From positions 1 through 53,413 of the forward strand of contig CAMTON010000015.1 in assembly GCA_947074105.1 (NCBI GenBank): a stretch of DNA of 53,413 bases. The letters run 5' to 3'. Below the pieces are notes generated by a model that saw only the letters and a program-made list of their open reading frames with translations, had not been told where the DNA came from and searched no databases. Below are positions 1,183-39,713 of this stretch, piece after piece. The stretch is from an uncultured Bacteroidales bacterium. Lineage in GTDB: Bacteria > Bacteroidota > Bacteroidia > Bacteroidales > JAUNSR01. Each line of letters starts with the position of its first letter. Position 1 is the first letter of the stretch. The position numbers and the translations under genes were made by a program.

Positions 1183-3915
1183 ATGAAAAAAGATTTTCTC
1201 AATTACTATAATAATAATTTCAATTCCCTGATGCAGATATTAAGTTCTGTTGAAAATGACGGAATAGGTCTCATAAATAAAAAGGATGAAATAATTTATT
1301 TGAATGAAAAGGGATGTTCGCTTCTTGATATAGATTACGATTCTCTTACTCCGTCAAACATAAAAGAAAAGATATCCGAGGAAATGAAACTAAAGAATTT
1401 CCAGAATCTTCTTTCCAAGAAATACAGAAAAGTATTTCGTGTGAACGGACATTTCGTAGGAACACACGATTTCTCCAATATTAATATTGAAATAGAAAAT
1501 GACAAGGGGGCAGAAGAGCTTGTCCTTTGCCGTTTCCGCGACATCACAGATGTTTTCGACCGGAAAGAGATGGAAGAATATCTTTACAGTGATGCTCCTA
1601 TAGGAGTATTTAAAATAATCATTTCTGATAAGTTTAAATTTCTATACGGATCACCATATTTCTATACATTGAATGGTATTGAAAATGAAAATAAAGATGA
1701 TAATAAATTTCAGGACGATAATCCCATCTTCCCTGAATTTCTATATCCCTATATCGAGAATATAAAAAACTCTATATCCCGAAACGATGATAATTCAACA
1801 TTTGAAATTGAACTACAGGACAAAAACTCTTCGCCGGTATATCTTCTTGCTCAGTGCACATTTGTGAAAGTACCTAAGGGTATCGTTGTTTATGGTTTTG
1901 TCGTAGACAATACTTTCCAGAAGATGCAGGAGATGGAGATGCAGACCATGCACCAGATAAATAAATTCACAATAGAGAAAGATTATCTTAATGTTGTCAT
2001 ACTTGATATTATAAACAAACAATATCAGATCATAGCTACAAATCAATACAATCTGGAAATTTATCCAAAAGGAGATCTTGGCCAGATTATATCTCTTCTT
2101 AAAAAACGAGTCTTTTCAGAAGATCGTGATCTGCTTGAAACTAACCTTGCTTTAGATAATATAATCGATATTCTTAAGGAAAACGATCGCTGTTCTGAGA
2201 AAATAAGATTTGCCGTTGAAGATAAAGTTATCTGGACTCTTTGTGAAGCACAGTATTATGACGAAGATAAGAATAAACTTCTTCTTTGTATGAGAGATAT
2301 TGATGAAGAGGAACGCCAGAAAAAGCGACTTGTTGCCGCGATGCAAAAAGCGGAAAGTGCTAACAGGGCAAAAAGTGATTTTCTTTCCCGTATGTCTCAT
2401 GATATCCGCACCCCGCTTAATACAATAATAGGAATGACATCTCTTTCGTCAATGCACCTTGATAATGCCGAAAAGATGAAAGAATATCTGAAAAAGATAG
2501 ATAATGCATCAAGATTCCTTCTTTCCATTATAAATGATGTTCTTGATATGTCAAAAATTGAAAGCGGTAAAATGGACCTTGTTTTGGATGATTTCAATTT
2601 TAAGGATTTCATCAGTTCGCTTACTCATATCTGTTACCACAGTGCTTCACAAAAGGGAATAGATTTCAATGTTACTTCTGACCCTAATCTTGTAAGATAT
2701 TATTATGGCGATCAGCTTCGTTTGCGTCAGATACTGATGAATCTCCTTTCAAATGCGATTAAATTTACGGCAAAGGAGAAAGGTTATGTTGCATTAAGGG
2801 TTGATCTTGTAAGACATGAAGAAGAAAATGACCTGATTCGTTTTACAGTATCCGACAATGGGGTAGGTATTAGTGAAGAATTCAGAAAACGTCTTTTCAA
2901 ACCGTTTGAGCAGGAGTCGGAGAATCAGTCCGGTCTTGTTGGTACAGGGCTTGGACTAAGCATTACTCATTCTCTTGTGAAAATAATGAACGGAACTATC
3001 CGCGTGATAAGCAGTCCCGGAGAAGGAAGCCGGTTTATAGTTGAAATTCCGCTGAGAGAAAGTTCCCGAAAAGAAAATGATGTAAAAACCGATTATAAGC
3101 ATAATGAAAAAATAAAAGTACTTATTATTGATGATGACGAAGTAACCTGCAGACACACACGCTCTATTCTAAATGAAGCGGAAGTGGAATCAGATTATGT
3201 CCTTTCAGGAAAGAAAGGAATCGACATGATCAATAAAGCGATAAGGATGGAATCTCCGTACAACCTGATTATTGTCGACTGGAAAATGCCTGAAATGGAC
3301 GGCAACAGAGTTTGTAAAGAGATAAGAAAGAATGTGGGAGATAATGTGCTGATATTTATTATGTCAGCATTCGACTGGACGGAAATTGAAGAAGAAGCAA
3401 GAGAAAACGGAGTAAATCATTTTATCAGCAAGCCGATGTTCCGTGACGATATCCATTTTATGCTTCAGAGTATAAGCAATGAACCCGGAATCCGTAAGAT
3501 TGAAAAGAAAAATGACAATGTAATATCATTCAATGCGGAGAAAATTCTACTTGTGGAAGATAATGAGATTAATGCGGAACTGCTTAAAACTCTGCTTGAA
3601 TGTTTCAATCTTAATATTACCGTTGTTTCCAACGGGGAAGAAGCTGTGAATAAGTTTGCATCTTCATCAATAAATGAATACCGTATAATACTTATGGATA
3701 TAAGAATGCCGGTAATGAACGGATATGAAGCAACAAGGATAATAAGAAATATGAATCGTGACGATGCTACGTCAATTCCGATTTTTGCCCTTTCCGCCAA
3801 TGCTTTTGCTGAGGATATTGAAAGTTCGATTAAATGCGGAATGAATGAACATCTATGCAAGCCTATAGATATAAAGGAGATTACCAGAAAGATAAAAGCT
3901 TATATCAATAAATAA
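1183..3915 (+). CDS. cytoplasmic hybrid sensor histidine kinase with two receiver domains
   Basis: A 910-residue protein with no clear membrane segment or signal peptide, so probably a cytosolic sensor. Residues about 15-380 look like successive PAS-type sensor segments. The kinase core follows: H-box RMSHDIRTPLN with His406, N-box QILMNLLSNAIKF (about 516-528), DNGVGI (about 558-563) and GTGLGLSI (about 587-594). Two receiver domains come next: REC1 with acidic DDD at 650-652, Asp699 and Lys750; REC2 with ED at 792-793, Asp839 and Lys893. Both keep the residues needed for phosphorylation. With the upstream HPt protein it can form a phosphorelay, but no DNA-binding output is encoded nearby. 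The MSHDIRTP box and the REC1 style (VDWKMPEMDG) are typical of Clostridia-type hybrids. Confidence 0.92.
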   Translation: MKKDFLNYYNNNFNSLMQILSSVENDGIGLINKKDEIIYLNEKGCSLLDIDYDSLTPSNIKEKISEEMKLKNFQNLLSKKYRKVFRVNGHFVGTHDFSNINIEIENDKGAEELVLCRFRDITDVFDRKEMEEYLYSDAPIGVFKIIISDKFKFLYGSPYFYTLNGIENENKDDNKFQDDNPIFPEFLYPYIENIKNSISRNDDNSTFEIELQDKNSSPVYLLAQCTFVKVPKGIVVYGFVVDNTFQKMQEMEMQTMHQINKFTIEKDYLNVVILDIINKQYQIIATNQYNLEIYPKGDLGQIISLLKKRVFSEDRDLLETNLALDNIIDILKENDRCSEKIRFAVEDKVIWTLCEAQYYDEDKNKLLLCMRDIDEEERQKKRLVAAMQKAESANRAKSDFLSRMSHDIRTPLNTIIGMTSLSSMHLDNAEKMKEYLKKIDNASRFLLSIINDVLDMSKIESGKMDLVLDDFNFKDFISSLTHICYHSASQKGIDFNVTSDPNLVRYYYGDQLRLRQILMNLLSNAIKFTAKEKGYVALRVDLVRHEEENDLIRFTVSDNGVGISEEFRKRLFKPFEQESENQSGLVGTGLGLSITHSLVKIMNGTIRVISSPGEGSRFIVEIPLRESSRKENDVKTDYKHNEKIKVLIIDDDEVTCRHTRSILNEAEVESDYVLSGKKGIDMINKAIRMESPYNLIIVDWKMPEMDGNRVCKEIRKNVGDNVLIFIMSAFDWTEIEEEARENGVNHFISKPMFRDDIHFMLQSISNEPGIRKIEKKNDNVISFNAEKILLVEDNEINAELLKTLLECFNLNITVVSNGEEAVNKFASSSINEYRIILMDIRMPVMNGYEATRIIRNMNRDDATSIPIFALSANAFAEDIESSIKCGMNEHLCKPIDIKEITRKIKAYINK

Positions 3916-3934
3916 TAAATCATTGTTATTTATC

Positions 3935-3985
3935 AAAAAAGGCCTTTCCGTATAAGTGAACACTTATGTGGAGAGGCCCTTTTTA
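3935..3985. terminator. terminator after the hybrid kinase
   Basis: Long stem-loop in which GGCCTTTCCGTATAAGTG pairs with CACTTATGTGGAGAGGCC, with A-run before and T-run after, so it could act on both strands. Any reading frame opened at 3956 would start inside this stem, which argues for the downstream start at 4049. Confidence 0.85.
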
Positions 3986-3986
3986 T

Positions 3987-3994
3987 TACCTTTG
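3987..3994 (+). promoter_or_regulatory. -7 promoter element (TAccTTTG)
   Basis: Exact match to the Bacteroidetes -7 consensus TAnnTTTG, directly after the terminator and about 55 bp before the ATG at 4049. Transcription would start near 4001. No strong -33 TTTG is visible. Confidence 0.6.
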
Positions 3995-4048
3995 CATCCT
4001 GATTTATTTACAACATTCAAAAAGTATAAAACTATAAATATTTTCATT

Positions 4049-4228
4049 ATGGATAATCTTCCTAAAGATCCTAATATATTGATGAGCTTTATAAATACAA
4101 AGCTCCGTGATGAGTTCCGTACTCTTGATGATCTTTGCCTTTCTCTTGATATTGACAAGAATGAACTTCTGAAAAAACTTGCAGAAGCAGGATTCGAATA
4201 TAATGCCCCTCTTAATAAGTTCTGGTAA
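4049..4228 (+). CDS. DUF4250-like small protein
   Basis: A 59-residue protein, MDNLPKDPNILMSFINTKLR at its start, with the pattern LPKDP-x-L-x-SF-x-NTKLRD, then LDDLC, then LNKFW at the end. This is the layout of the DUF4250 family, small helical proteins of unknown function found in gut Firmicutes and Bacteroidetes. The middle (TLDDLCLSLDIDKNELLKKL) looks like a helix-turn-helix-sized bundle, but DNA binding is not shown. The longer frame opened at 3956 starts in a terminator stem and upstream of the -7 element, so the ATG at 4049 is chosen. It has its own promoter. Confidence 0.8.
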   Translation: MDNLPKDPNILMSFINTKLRDEFRTLDDLCLSLDIDKNELLKKLAEAGFEYNAPLNKFW

Positions 4229-4265
4229 TGAGCTCCGTTTCACGAATCGAAGTATATTTTTTCAA

Positions 4266-4344
4266 ATAACCGCACAGTTATCATATTGCCACCGAACAGT
4301 TGCAATATGACAACTGTACAGTTGTCATGTTGTCATCGTGCGAC
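4266..4344. repeat. 22-bp palindromic tandem repeat array, locus A
   Basis: Three consecutive 22-bp units (4266-4287, 4288-4309, 4310-4331) and a decayed fourth piece to about 4344. The shared core is ACYGNACAGT followed by a CATAT-like end; positions 4, 5, 7, 10-13, 18, 19 and 21 of the unit are identical in all six copies of the two loci. The third unit lies in a perfect 22-bp palindrome at 4307-4328 centred on CTGT/ACAG. It sits between convergent genes (DUF4250-like and the beta-helix lipoprotein). An 18-bp stretch is identical to locus B at 38469-38486. There are no unique spacers, so it is not CRISPR. Confidence 0.85.
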
Positions 4345-4502
4345 TTTTTCATAAAATTACAGAGCCAAAAAATCCATTCCCCTCGATTCACATCGGAAGA
4401 ATGGAACATAAGAATTGATTGTGTAATAAAAAACAATAGATCAATCTTAAAAATTAAGAATAGTAAAATCACTCATTAAAATTTAACAATCTCTCAACAC
4501 AA

Positions 4503-6017
4503 TTAATATACAGTATTTTGTGGATCAAAATTAGTCCAGCTATCCATCCAGTCGTCAGAAGGAGATGAAAATGCACCTATGTATGAAACTCTGTCAAATC
4601 CTGAAGATAGAAGATTGTCAGAGAAATCAGCACCTGAAAGAAGCGGGCTGCCCGACTGTGGGCCATAAGACGGATTCGACAGAGTTGAGTTAGGCTGTAC
4701 AAGCATAAGCTCGTCAACACTGCTGAAATATCTGTTGTTGTTTGCGATATTTTTAAAGAAGGTAGCTGAGAATGACTCTCTTGTTTCATCCATATTCTCA
4801 GCATCCGGTGAATACAGGTCAAGAAATGATTTATTTCTGTCAGAACCAAGGATGCTCATATTGGCGAATACAAGATTTTTAAGTTTAAGATCTCCGTTTT
4901 CCGCCCATGTCTGTGTTGTTGATGATTTGTCGTTTTCTACGATAAGTCCTACAGGGTATCCTATTGCTACAGAGTTGAAACAGTTAAGGTGAGAATTTCT
5001 GCGTATTTGCATTGCAGCCTGGAAAACTCCGGTTTTGGAACCGTTGTTAGGATTCATATTGATATCTCCCGGACGGATATAATCTGCACTGTTTACGAAA
5101 TTCGCATCCTGAGCAAGCGGTCCTACAAGAGTCACATTGCTGAATACCGGGCTTGTGTAAGGTGTGCCCTGAGAAGTACTGCTGTTGTCTGATTCAAAAC
5201 CGTTGGAAATAGATGTATCCGCGATTTTCGGATGGCGTACTCCGAGAAGGAACTGAAGGTTACCCTGAAAACCGTTGTCTGTATCAAAGTCATCGTCCCA
5301 TCCATGATATGCAACAAGATATTTACAGTTAACGGTACCACCGAACCATTCGAATGAGTCGTCGTTACAGTAAGAAACCTGAACATGGTCGATCTGTGTC
5401 CCGCGTCCTACAGAACCCATTGTAAGTCCGTTGATCTCTTTATCAGTGTCAAAAGGATAGCCTGCGAACTCAATACGTACATAGCTGAGGATTCCTGAAT
5501 TATCGTCATTATCAACAAAACCTTCCACATTGCCGTGCTCAGTTCTCGGTCCGCCCTCTATAAGCTGCTTGCCAAGATTGTTTTGTGCATATCCGCAAAG
5601 GATCACGCCTCCCCAGTCTCCCGGCTTTCTCTGTCCCGCGTCTTTAGCGGATGTGAAAACGATAGGTTCTGATTTTGTTCCCTGAGCATATATCTTACCT
5701 CCGGGTTCAACGATAAGGCTACCCATTGTTTTTGTATCTCCTTTGATCACTGTACCGGGTTCTATAGTAAGTTCTGAACCTTTAGTAACATATATGAAGC
5801 CCTTCATAACGTACACACCTTTTGGAAGAGTGTATGTACCGTTTATCTCATACTCTTTATTACCGTTACCTATTTCATTTCCGTTAAAGATAAACGGAAG
5901 ATCTGTAGCATCCGGATCAGGAGTAATTACAGTTGAGTTATCATCATTGTCCTTGCAGGAAGTCAATGATAAAGCGGCAATCATAGCGCCCATTAAAGAA
6001 AGACTGATTCTTTTCAT
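4503..6017 (-). CDS. secreted beta-helix lipoprotein, partner of TonB receptor
   Basis: A 504-residue protein with a lipoprotein signal (MKRISLSLMGAMIAALSLTSC; lipobox LTSC, acylated Cys21) followed by an acidic linker. From about residue 60 it has short repeated beta strands (GVYVMKGFIYV, LTIEPGTVIKG, GSLIVEPGGKIYAQG) like a right-handed parallel beta-helix. It is downstream of and same-strand with the TonB-dependent receptor at 6057-8930, with a 39-bp gap, so the two form an operon. Such lipoproteins usually sit on the outer membrane next to the receptor and may help capture its ligand. The ligand is unknown, and this is not a SusD-type protein because no TPR/SusD features are seen. The 4345-4502 spacer downstream is AT-rich without a gene. 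Confidence 0.75.
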   Translation of the reverse strand: MKRISLSLMGAMIAALSLTSCKDNDDNSTVITPDPDATDLPFIFNGNEIGNGNKEYEINGTYTLPKGVYVMKGFIYVTKGSELTIEPGTVIKGDTKTMGSLIVEPGGKIYAQGTKSEPIVFTSAKDAGQRKPGDWGGVILCGYAQNNLGKQLIEGGPRTEHGNVEGFVDNDDNSGILSYVRIEFAGYPFDTDKEINGLTMGSVGRGTQIDHVQVSYCNDDSFEWFGGTVNCKYLVAYHGWDDDFDTDNGFQGNLQFLLGVRHPKIADTSISNGFESDNSSTSQGTPYTSPVFSNVTLVGPLAQDANFVNSADYIRPGDINMNPNNGSKTGVFQAAMQIRRNSHLNCFNSVAIGYPVGLIVENDKSSTTQTWAENGDLKLKNLVFANMSILGSDRNKSFLDLYSPDAENMDETRESFSATFFKNIANNNRYFSSVDELMLVQPNSTLSNPSYGPQSGSPLLSGADFSDNLLSSGFDRVSYIGAFSSPSDDWMDSWTNFDPQNTVY

Positions 6018-37192: not shown

Positions 37193-38350
37193 ATGAAACG
37201 AATCATTTTAAATGAAACTTCCTATTTCGGAGCAGGATGCCGCTCTGTAATAGCAGAAGAAGTCGCTCGCCGCGGCTTCAGAAAAGCATTTTTTGTAACA
37301 GACAAAGATCTTATAAAATTCGGTGTTGCCGATAAGATTACACAGGTCCTTAACGCTGCTTCAATTCCCTTTGAACTGTTCAGTGATGTAAAAGCCAACC
37401 CTACTATTGCCAACGTACAGCACGGAGTGGAAGCATATAAGAAATCAGGAGCTGATTTTATTATAGCCTTAGGAGGCGGATCTTCAATAGATACTGCAAA
37501 AGGGATAGGTATTGTAGTTAACAACCCTGAGTTTGCAGATGTAAAATCACTTGAGGGAGTTGCTGACACAAAACACAAAGCTGTACCGACATTCGCTCTT
37601 CCGACTACTGCGGGAACAGCTGCCGAAGTAACTATAAACTATGTAATAATAGACGAAGATGCAAAAAAGAAAATGGTTTGTGTCGATCCTAATGATATTC
37701 CGGCTGTCGCTATTATTGATCCTGAACTGATGTATTCAATGCCTAAAGGACTTACCGCTGCTACAGGAATGGATGCTCTTACTCATGCCATTGAAAGTTA
37801 TATAACACCGGGAGCATGGGCTATGAGTGACATGTTTGAGATAAAAGCTATTGAAATGATAGCTCAGAATCTTAAAAATGCTGTTGACAACGGTAATGAT
37901 ACTCTTGCCCGCGATAATATGGCACAGGCACAGTATATAGCAGGTATGGGATTCTCAAATGTAGGACTGGGGATAGTTCATTCTATGGCTCACCCGCTCG
38001 GAGCATTCTATGATACTCCGCACGGTGTAGCAAATGCGTTACTTCTTCCTTATGTGATGGAGTATAATGCAGATTCTCCTGCTGCTCCCAAATATAAAGA
38101 TATTGCCGGAGCCATGGGAGTTGATATTGAAGGAATGAATACCGAAGAAGGAGTAAAAGCAGCTATTGAAGCAGTAAAGAAACTGTCGGAAAGTATTAAT
38201 ATTCCTCAGAAGCTGTCCGAAATAGGAGTAAAGGAAGAAGATATTCATGATCTTGCCGTAGCAGCATATGGTGATGTCTGCACAGGAGGTAATCCTCGTC
38301 CTACATCCGTAGAAGATATTGAAGCCATTTACAGAAAAGCTTACAGATAA
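37193..38350 (+). CDS. fucO: iron-dependent alcohol dehydrogenase, lactaldehyde reductase type
   Basis: A 385-residue group III (Fe-dependent) alcohol dehydrogenase. NAD-binding GGGSSIDTAKGIG and the metal-binding region ALTHAIESY...GIVHSMAHPLGAFYDTPHGVANALL (Asp and three His) are intact. The overall match is to FucO, which reduces L-lactaldehyde to 1,2-propanediol during fucose or rhamnose fermentation. No fucose genes are next to it here, so substrate is by family only. Single gene with a strong terminator. Confidence 0.88.
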   Translation: MKRIILNETSYFGAGCRSVIAEEVARRGFRKAFFVTDKDLIKFGVADKITQVLNAASIPFELFSDVKANPTIANVQHGVEAYKKSGADFIIALGGGSSIDTAKGIGIVVNNPEFADVKSLEGVADTKHKAVPTFALPTTAGTAAEVTINYVIIDEDAKKKMVCVDPNDIPAVAIIDPELMYSMPKGLTAATGMDALTHAIESYITPGAWAMSDMFEIKAIEMIAQNLKNAVDNGNDTLARDNMAQAQYIAGMGFSNVGLGIVHSMAHPLGAFYDTPHGVANALLLPYVMEYNADSPAAPKYKDIAGAMGVDIEGMNTEEGVKAAIEAVKKLSESINIPQKLSEIGVKEEDIHDLAVAAYGDVCTGGNPRPTSVEDIEAIYRKAYR

Positions 38351-38381
38351 ATAATAAACAAAATATTTCTTTCTTCATTTC

Positions 38382-38427
38382 AGGGAGAGCGGTTGCAGAA
38401 AATGCAATCGTTCTCCCTGTCTTTTTT
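38382..38427 (+). terminator. terminator after fucO
   Basis: Stem GGGAGAGCGGTTGCA paired with TGCAATCGTTCTCCC, small loop, then CTTTTTT. Confidence 0.9.
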
Positions 38428-38467
38428 AATCTCTCCTGTTTTTATATACTCCCTACTTATTTTTTGT

Positions 38468-38546
38468 GCAACTGTACAGTTGTCATATGTAAACTGCGCA
38501 GTGTTAATATGACAACCGTACAGTTAACATATAACAACCGACCATG
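38468..38546. repeat. 22-bp palindromic tandem repeat array, locus B
   Basis: Three 22-bp units at 38468-38489, 38490-38511 and 38512-38533 and a decayed fourth to about 38546. The unit is the same as at locus A (4266-4344), core AACTGTACAGTT in the best copy, ending TCATATG. It starts about 40 bp after the fucO terminator and lies before a long gene-free stretch. Confidence 0.85.
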
Positions 38547-39230
38547 TTTTAATAATATCATTATATCACTATCGGAAATAGTGATATTGAGTTTTGCATC
38601 ACTGTTTTTGATCTCATAAACGACGGATGATAAATACAAGAAATAATTTCTTAAAATGATCGGCAATAATTTATTAAAAGGAAAGTAATATGATAAAATT
38701 GTCCTGATTTATCAATTTATCCCGTTAAATATATATGTTCTAATTATTTATTGACTTTGTATATTGAGGTTTTTGCAGACATGTTTTATCAATAGAGAAT
38801 ATAAAAATATCGTTAATAAAAAAATACAATTCCATTTTGATAAAAATGGAAAGAATTTACCAAAACGGACATTAAAATTTACGAAATGGGAAGTGGTGGG
38901 CTTTTGTCAGTTGGTGAAAATACAATGAAAATGACAAAATAAGTGCTTAAATATATGATGAGGATAGTTTTTTTGTTCATATCGGAAAATTATAACAAAT
39001 AGTAGTCAAATTTTCCGATTGGTAAAAAGTGGGAGAAATTTCCGAAATCGTAAATGTTAAAATGTTAAATTGTGTTGTATAGAAATCAATTTTATTATTA
39101 AGGATAGCATAAAAATATATTTAAACTTATTTGCGGAACATTTAGAAAACGGATAAAGCTTATTGATCTGCCTTCTGATTAAAGGAATATAATCATAGAA
39201 TGCCTGATATTGATTTTATATGAAAGATTT
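38547..39230. other. gene-poor structured intergenic region
   Basis: No convincing long gene. It holds a 9-bp hairpin (TTCCATTTT at 38830-38838 with its complement at 38843-38851, 4-nt loop), an 11-bp inverted repeat (ATCGGAAAATT at 38981-38991 and complement at 39009-39019), and a tiny open frame at 38886-38942 (18 residues, beginning MGSGGLLSVGENT). The base composition is very AT-rich except around that tiny frame. It could be a regulatory or non-coding RNA region for the gene at 39231. Confidence 0.45.
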
Positions 39231-39713
39231 ATGAATTTTCTGTCTGATCATTTTAAAAACTTCTTGCTAAAAAGAAATGTGTTAGGATGTCTCGGTAAAG
39301 TGTACTTTTTTAAAGAATACAATTCTCCGATAATAGCGACAGGGTCAAAAAAATCGGGATTTAAACGAAAATATTCTTCATGGTTATACAGATTGTATGG
39401 CATTCCTGATCTTGAAAAATTAAAATCATATAGGAGTATGTCTGATAAGAAAAATAAAATAAAAGCAATATTTGATAAGGACAACAAATCTCCTTCAGAC
39501 ATTAATCTTCTTAAAGATTTGATAAAGTTGATCTCGCTGCTGGATAAAGAAATTAAAATCATTTATATATTATATCTGTCCGGGTACACTTTAGAAGATA
39601 TTTCTGAAAAAAATGATGTAAGCTTAGAATATGTAAAAAAGTCGATAAAAGCGGCTGAAAATATAATAACCGAAAAATTAGAGAAGCTCTGTCGTGATAA
39701 AGATTTAACATGA
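39231..39713 (+). CDS. small protein with sigma-70 region-4-like helix-turn-helix
   Basis: A 160-residue, Lys-rich protein. The C-terminal 55 residues (LLDKEIKIIYILYLSGYTLEDI, then SEKNDVSLEYVKKSIKAAENI) follow the sigma-70 region 4 pattern, with a helix-turn-helix at YTLEDISEKNDVSLEYVKKS. The N-terminal half matches no sigma region 2 that I recognise, so it may be a partial sigma factor or a specialised DNA-binding protein. The TTG at 39210 extends the frame; ATG at 39231 is taken. Codon use is very AT-rich. A terminator follows at 39724-39767. Next gene is the 7TM-AraC regulator. Confidence 0.6.
   Translation: MNFLSDHFKNFLLKRNVLGCLGKVYFFKEYNSPIIATGSKKSGFKRKYSSWLYRLYGIPDLEKLKSYRSMSDKKNKIKAIFDKDNKSPSDINLLKDLIKLISLLDKEIKIIYILYLSGYTLEDISEKNDVSLEYVKKSIKAAENIITEKLEKLCRDKDLT

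Follow-up and report, generated by a model that had tools for sequence, protein, structure and literature searches.

Dispersed palindromes that organise the chromosome are represented by the matS/MatP, SBS/SlmA and NBS/Noc systems. In archaea, the single protein SegB acts at tens of palindromic sites dispersed along the chromosome, and its 13-bp motif is conserved across genera and mostly intragenic (PMC12284271). Operators of Lrp/AsnC (FFRP) octamers are exemplified by those of BarR, an Lrp-type protein of the Sulfolobales, in which four to five semi-palindromic sites lie two helical turns apart, with one dimer proposed for each site, and the DNA is wrapped on the octamer (PMC10201364). Two types of dispersed repeat are also relevant, i.e. 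the REP/BIME/REPIN elements and their RAYT transposases (PMC3733652, PMC2817692) and BrickBuilt of Porphyromonas gingivalis, which is probably an order-level relative of the organism studied here; BrickBuilt is a MITE with 23-nt tandem repeats in 1 to about 23 copies and is present as 19 elements (PMC4596501).

Here, we analyse two arrays (A and B) of 22-bp palindromic units in a 53,413-nt stretch of DNA (the window) from an uncultured Bacteroidales bacterium, and the family to which they belong. The arrays are like the SegB sites in that tens of palindromic sites are dispersed along the chromosome; however, they contain four dyads, are intergenic and diverge in sequence. With Lrp/AsnC octamer operators they share regularly spaced dyads at two-turn spacing, whereas BarR-type operators are single promoter regions and the arrays are distributed chromosome-wide at about 80 loci, largely outside promoters. 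Like REP/BIME/REPIN elements, they are numerous, dispersed, intergenic, palindromic and species-specific but have no RAYT, show no selection for hairpins, avoid perfect palindromes and have a fixed three-unit build. BrickBuilt resembles them as a species-specific intergenic tandem repeat with a period close to 22 bp and inverted ends; palindromes are not mentioned in the BrickBuilt paper, whereas the units described here are double dyads in fixed number.

Results

Three adjoining 22-bp units in phase at array A, the same arrangement at array B and a perfect 22-bp palindrome at 4307-4328, ATGACAACTGTACAGTTGTCAT, had been reported in a preliminary description of the window, and all are present in the sequence (Table 1); the palindrome is formed by units 2 and 3 of array A. 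What had been taken for a decayed fourth unit of array A is a regular outer half-site followed by an A/T-rich end, as found at nearly every copy. The 16-mer GTTGTCATATGACAAC has 4 matches in the window at up to 3 mismatches vs 0.14 expected, which excludes a chance origin. Array A is located between convergent reading frames, as had been noted, and array B between co-directional genes. The window also encodes a TonB-dependent receptor with a carboxypeptidase regulatory domain (Pfam), which is compatible with a Bacteroidales origin. Just upstream of array A, a 59-codon reading frame (4050-4228) resembles a small conserved protein that may be DUF4250-like. Array B is followed by 650 bp of AT-rich DNA without a clear gene (38560-39210) and then by a small protein (39210-39713) that shows weak similarity to sigma-70 region 4.

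Table 1. Coordinates in the window of arrays A and B and of the adjacent terminators
Feature	Position	Strand	Sequence or description	Basis
Element A overall	about 4259-4354		three 22-bp units and half-site-like flanks	
Left end of element A	4259..4272	.	A/T-rich tip and outer half-site, ending ...CCG	symmetrised flank profile
Array A unit 1	4273..4294	.	CACAGTTATCATATTGCCACCG	sequence and PWM chain
Array A unit 2	4295..4316	.	AACAGTTGCAATATGACAACTG	sequence and PWM chain
Array A unit 3	4317..4338	.	TACAGTTGTCATGTTGTCATCG	sequence and PWM chain
Right end of element A	4339..4354	.	TGCGACTTTTTCATAA	PWM scan and flank profile
Intrinsic terminator of gene 4503-6017 (minus strand)	4373..4405	-	between gene end and array A; hairpin -17.1 kcal/mol, then U tract	terminator scan
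Intrinsic terminator of Fe-ADH gene 37193-38350 (Pfam)	38381..38428	+	between gene end and array B; hairpin -30.1 kcal/mol and T tract	terminator scan
Left end of element B	38461..38474	.	TTTTTGTGCAACTG	PWM scan and flank profile
Array B unit 1	38475..38496	.	TACAGTTGTCATATGTAAACTG	sequence and PWM scan
Array B unit 2	38497..38518	.	CGCAGTGTTAATATGACAACCG	sequence and PWM scan
Array B unit 3	38519..38540	.	TACAGTTAACATATAACAACCG	sequence and PWM scan
Right end of element B, degenerate	38541..38556	.	ACCATGTTTTAATAAT	PWM scan and flank profile

The genome that contains the window (G000) comprises 3.86 Mb in 205 contigs. At up to 3 mismatches, the 20-mer CAGTTGTCATATGACAACTG matches 37 sites in this genome vs 0 for the reversed control. 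A genome-wide search for further copies had been proposed in the preliminary description; using a profile derived from a gapless alignment of 13 arrays, we found at least 78 arrays, including one two-unit array that came from the weight matrix, and these arrays are intergenic, keep strictly to the 22-bp phase and have two dyad centres. In this respect the original observation was right and understated. We examined 75 arrays, each with about 3 kb of flanking sequence on either side unless the contig ended earlier, as well as the whole of contigs C1 and C2, and scanned all of this sequence with a weight matrix. Unit number varies hardly at all: exactly three full units are present in 69 of the 75 arrays, four in 5 (one of which, L082, is better read as three units) and two in 1. 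Together with its outer half-sites, a three-unit array has four GTAC-centred and three ATAT-centred dyads with TpA steps every 11 bp in the units, spans about 96 bp in all and is closed by symmetric A/T-rich ends, e.g. TTTnAAAAAAGACG...CGTCTTTTTTnAAA or TTTTGTACAACCG...CGGTTGTACGAAAA. In a symmetrised profile of 68 arrays, information in the flanks reaches about 15 bp outside the units with almost none beyond, and T tracts are found on about half of the ends. The about 385 kb of fully scanned contigs hold no graveyard of decayed copies. A minisatellite MITE of the BrickBuilt type is rejected given the constant unit number and the finding that units differ at most non-core positions, and a CRISPR-like array is rejected because the units are contiguous, without spacers and at about 80 loci. 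More arrays than expected are located less than 300 bp from a contig end (C103, C42, C191, C57 and C125), and this excess suggests that arrays may sometimes break the assembly.

The unit sequence is under selection. At unit positions C3, T6, A11, T14, A19 and G22, at least 227 of the 229 units carry the same letter, and at positions 4, 7 and 9 and the mirror positions the choice is almost strictly between two letters, whereas the positions neighbouring the six invariant ones are saturated with variation. The 4-mer between T6 and A11 has 28 forms, with GACA, TGTC, TGCA, TGCG, GTTA, TTTC and GATA being the commonest. Identity between pairs of arrays is close to a slot-shuffled null (61/66 for the best pair; the null maximum in 30 shuffles is 60), and the conserved letters are therefore held by selection rather than by recent copying.

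Within arrays, perfect palindromes are avoided: the same word occurs in both halves of an ATAT dyad in 6 cases vs 23 expected and across a GTAC dyad in 6 vs 14 expected, whereas the same word in direct orientation in the next unit is not avoided. Half-sites 1 and 4, and 3 and 6, are more alike than by chance (z=3.4), though adjacent halves avoid identity. The minimum folding energy of arrays equals that of word-shuffled arrays (z=0.06), facing half-sites of the units show no covariation of the pairing type, and an Rfam search of window positions 3900-4600 gave best matches far below gathering scores. This pattern would be expected of a protein-binding site in double-stranded DNA with a bias against perfect palindromes and is unlike an RNA hairpin, an attC-like strand or a REP. 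Accordingly, a cruciform or attC-like folded strand is rejected by the depletion of perfect palindromes, and an RNA element by the lack of both an Rfam family at gathering score and pairing-type covariation. Y1/RAYT transposase (PF01797) was detected in none of five genomes of the genus (71-96% complete) and in all five control genomes. The REP-like element that the preliminary description had considered, including a REPIN, is rejected because no RAYT gene was found in the genus, there is no selected hairpin and perfect palindromes are avoided.

The distribution of the arrays along the chromosome is non-random and over-dispersed. The at least 78 arrays give 14 within-contig gaps (9.5, 13.2, 16.8, 20.1, 20.5, 22.8, 22.9, 23.7, 24.8, 25.6, 34.2, 41.2, 75.8 and 77.5 kb), and half of these are 20-26 kb. 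No gap shorter than 9 kb was seen vs 10.1 expected (P<2e-4, 5000 simulations in which the lengths of unread contigs were interpolated), and random placement averages 22.7 gaps. Independently of the genome-wide search, no second array occurs in the stretches of about 6 kb that surround the arrays. A few arrays are at contig ends, and some neighbours can thus be concealed by assembly breaks, though probably too few to explain the deficit of short gaps.

With genes called by a simple longest-ORF rule, 39 of 67 classified arrays lie between co-directional, 16 between convergent and 12 between divergent genes, and the background gaps of at least 100 bp in C1 and C2 (n=133) are divided into 69, 27 and 37, respectively. 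Thus, the convergent placement of array A, to which the preliminary description had drawn attention, is nothing special. In tandem gaps the array is nearer to the stop codon than to the next start in 29 of 39 cases (medians 70 vs 159 bp, P=0.003). Among the 49 3' gaps that could be tested, i.e. with at least 30 bp from gene end to array, 31 have an intrinsic terminator in this interval vs 3 of 62 5' gaps; arrays A and B each follow this post-terminator placement on one side. About 20 arrays adjoin a stop codon so closely that a terminator would have hardly any space or none, and at these the array may have a role in ending transcription. The 68 array-facing genes share no family, with 159 Pfam families represented by at most two members each.

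None of the other four genomes of the genus contains the G000 unit, and the exact two-dyad pattern gave only 12 single, chance-like hits in 84,980 GTDB representatives, in taxa that are unrelated judging by their titles. In the sister genome G001, the best weak profile hit is a 22-bp-phase array of different sequence. A sequence-free search for lag-22 repetition in 400 kb of this genome identified at least four families: a (GTTATCAAYTGATAAC), b (CACCTTGCAAGGTG), c (ATCCTAANNGCNNTTAGGAT) and d (GTTGGAAYGTTCCAAC). In the whole of G001, about 12-14 arrays belong to family c and about 14 to family a. The family-c arrays examined in full have four dyads at 22 bp. In most copies of family a, the middle dyad is broken on one half, and the perfect palindrome is therefore again avoided. 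Family a also has long symmetric ends, TTTTGCTGCTCCTTGC/GCAAGGAGCAGCAAAA, whose resemblance to terminal inverted repeats makes dispersal by transposition at some time possible; its copies are more similar to each other, and its linker, AGTTRTCAnnTGAYAACT, resembles the G000 unit.

Of 22 G001 arrays, 5 occupy an intergenic gap whose G000 counterpart also has an array (4/9 for family a and 1/9 for family c) where gap and array density predict about one to two by chance; this comparison is suggestive of positional conservation. The orthologous G001 gaps of arrays A and B contain no array. G002 has a similar array family (GATTCC...GGAATC; L203), and in G003 a 22/23-bp tandem array adjoins the same gene as array A. 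In G004, repeats with a 21-bp period around GACGGTCAAAATTT (L186 8304, L191 5527 and L193 15384) may correspond to the arrays in this species. Palindromic arrays with a period of 22 are not enriched in about 540 kb drawn from 40 further genomes of the order. In one order relative, G022, 23-bp tandem repeats that are not palindromic, CTCACAAGTTTGTCAGTTTTTA, occur twice within 1.5 kb (L232, about 8.2 and 9.7 kb); this is a different kind of array and closer to BrickBuilt. The preliminary description had made conservation in relatives a touchstone, and here the architecture is kept and the unit sequence is not. A phage or plasmid origin is rejected, as the three matches in viral contigs represent a single sequence that lacks an array and no plasmid matched.

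Discussion

Combining architecture, selection, placement and spacing, we suggest that the arrays are operators for a putative sequence-specific, multi-dimer chromosome-binding protein, most likely a chromosome organiser; we give this model about even chances. In this model, (i) each array would be an operator of double-stranded DNA on which several protein dimers bind next to one another, (ii) the half-sites (TACRGT-KNNM-AT), which alternate in orientation every 11 bp, would each be read by identical protomers, (iii) the 22-bp unit, corresponding to two helical turns, would place the dyads on about one helical face, and (iv) the constant count of four dyads, two turns apart, would point to one closed assembly and not an open-ended filament, e.g. 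a tetramer of dimers around which the DNA is wrapped as in Lrp/AsnC-type octamers. The about 80 sites, more than 9 kb apart and usually beyond terminators, would most likely be nucleoid or topological-domain sites. Finally, divergence of the unit sequence between species with persistence of the architecture would presumably reflect a change either of the binding protein's specificity or of the protein itself. The interpretation in the preliminary description is thus partly supported: sites for bound protein dimers are the best reading of an in-phase family with two dyads, and the chromosome-organising role that it mentioned fits the over-dispersed spacing.

The four GTAC dyads at 22 bp in the G000 arrays, and likewise the dyads of family c in G001, match Lrp/AsnC octamer operators with four or more dyads at two-turn spacing. 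Among proteins of such geometry, DNA-wrapping octamers of the Lrp type are the best known. G000 encodes four Lrp/AsnC proteins and G001 three. The HTH segments of the three shared proteins are nearly identical in the two genomes, and the shared proteins therefore do not explain why the units differ; a further difference from BarR-type operators is that the 22-bp unit differs between the sister species although these HTHs are conserved. With the shared proteins excluded, the extra, G000-specific paralogue G000_C9 (contig 9, about 7 kb; L280), for which we found no close G001 counterpart, is the sole remaining candidate of this family. Overall, we consider it rather improbable that the binding protein belongs to the Lrp family. 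In contig 5 of G001 (L179 about 18.1 kb / L284), a four-dyad array of family b is located about 100 bp past an Lrp/AsnC gene, beyond the terminator; the G000 orthologue of this gene is without an array.

Alternatively, the arrays may be MITE-like non-autonomous mobile elements with palindromic ends that were dispersed by a putative transposase, in which case the units would be transposase-binding sites and target immunity would space the copies. Compatible with this scenario are the well-delimited, symmetric ends of the G000 arrays, with their A/T tips and outer half-sites, the long inverted ends and more similar copies of family a in G001, the precedent of a MITE holding 23-nt tandem repeats in P. 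gingivalis (PMC4596501) and the occurrence of species-specific, intergenic elements in several families per genome; target immunity would, moreover, yield over-dispersion. However, the G000 copies show almost no relationship to one another, share no flank sequence beyond the ends, have a nearly constant unit number and have left no decayed copies in the about 385 kb scanned, and plasmids contain no similar element. Specifically, a family of decaying MITEs would not combine a pairwise identity near the slot-shuffled null with six positions conserved at 99% or more next to saturated neighbours, and this version fails. Altogether, we regard a mobile element as unlikely.

A second alternative is that array-bound protein stops RNA polymerase between neighbouring genes, making the array a bidirectional roadblock terminator or insulator. 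The bias towards gene 3' ends, the arrays that directly abut stop codons and the T tracts would be accounted for by such an activity, whereas the classical terminator already present ahead of the array in most testable 3' gaps (31 of 49), the use of divergent gaps (12 of 67), the lack of selection on RNA fold and the even spacing on a scale above 9 kb, which is not expected of a terminator, would not; we consider this explanation improbable. The array itself is not an intrinsic terminator, given the absence of fold selection and the separate terminator in those same gaps.

Dyad operators are typical of transcription factors and 12 of 67 arrays are in divergent promoter regions, as the operators of an ordinary transcriptional regulon might be; however, the array-facing genes have no common family, 16 of 67 arrays lie between convergent genes and those in tandem gaps are farther from starts than from stops, making this very unlikely. 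Least probable is a DNA-topology element, such as a gyrase-binding site like BIME-2 of Escherichia coli, in spacers where supercoils accumulate: the position in 3' spacers, the TpA steps and a spacing plausible for topological domains are compatible with it, yet gyrase is highly conserved while the units are wholly different between sister species and between families within one genome, and there is no hairpin or REP structure.

If the arrays are operators for a multi-dimer chromosome-binding protein, they could represent a new class of element, i.e. fixed four-dyad arrays in 22-bp phase at quasi-regular intervals, whose specificity changes between sister species while the architecture and some positions persist, in a chromosome-wide version of the co-evolution of centromere-like sites and their proteins. 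We advance this only tentatively. Full-text literature searches found no description of such an element, although subscription papers were thinly covered and a description may exist.

Outside a few models, the folding and partitioning of most bacterial chromosomes are obscure, and about 80 well-defined sites with a strong spacing rule address that problem. These sites are a ready bait for the binding protein and provide a direct test. Moreover, an architecture that is kept while its sequence is replaced would allow the study of how binding specificity changes in concert across dozens of sites in a bacterial chromosome.
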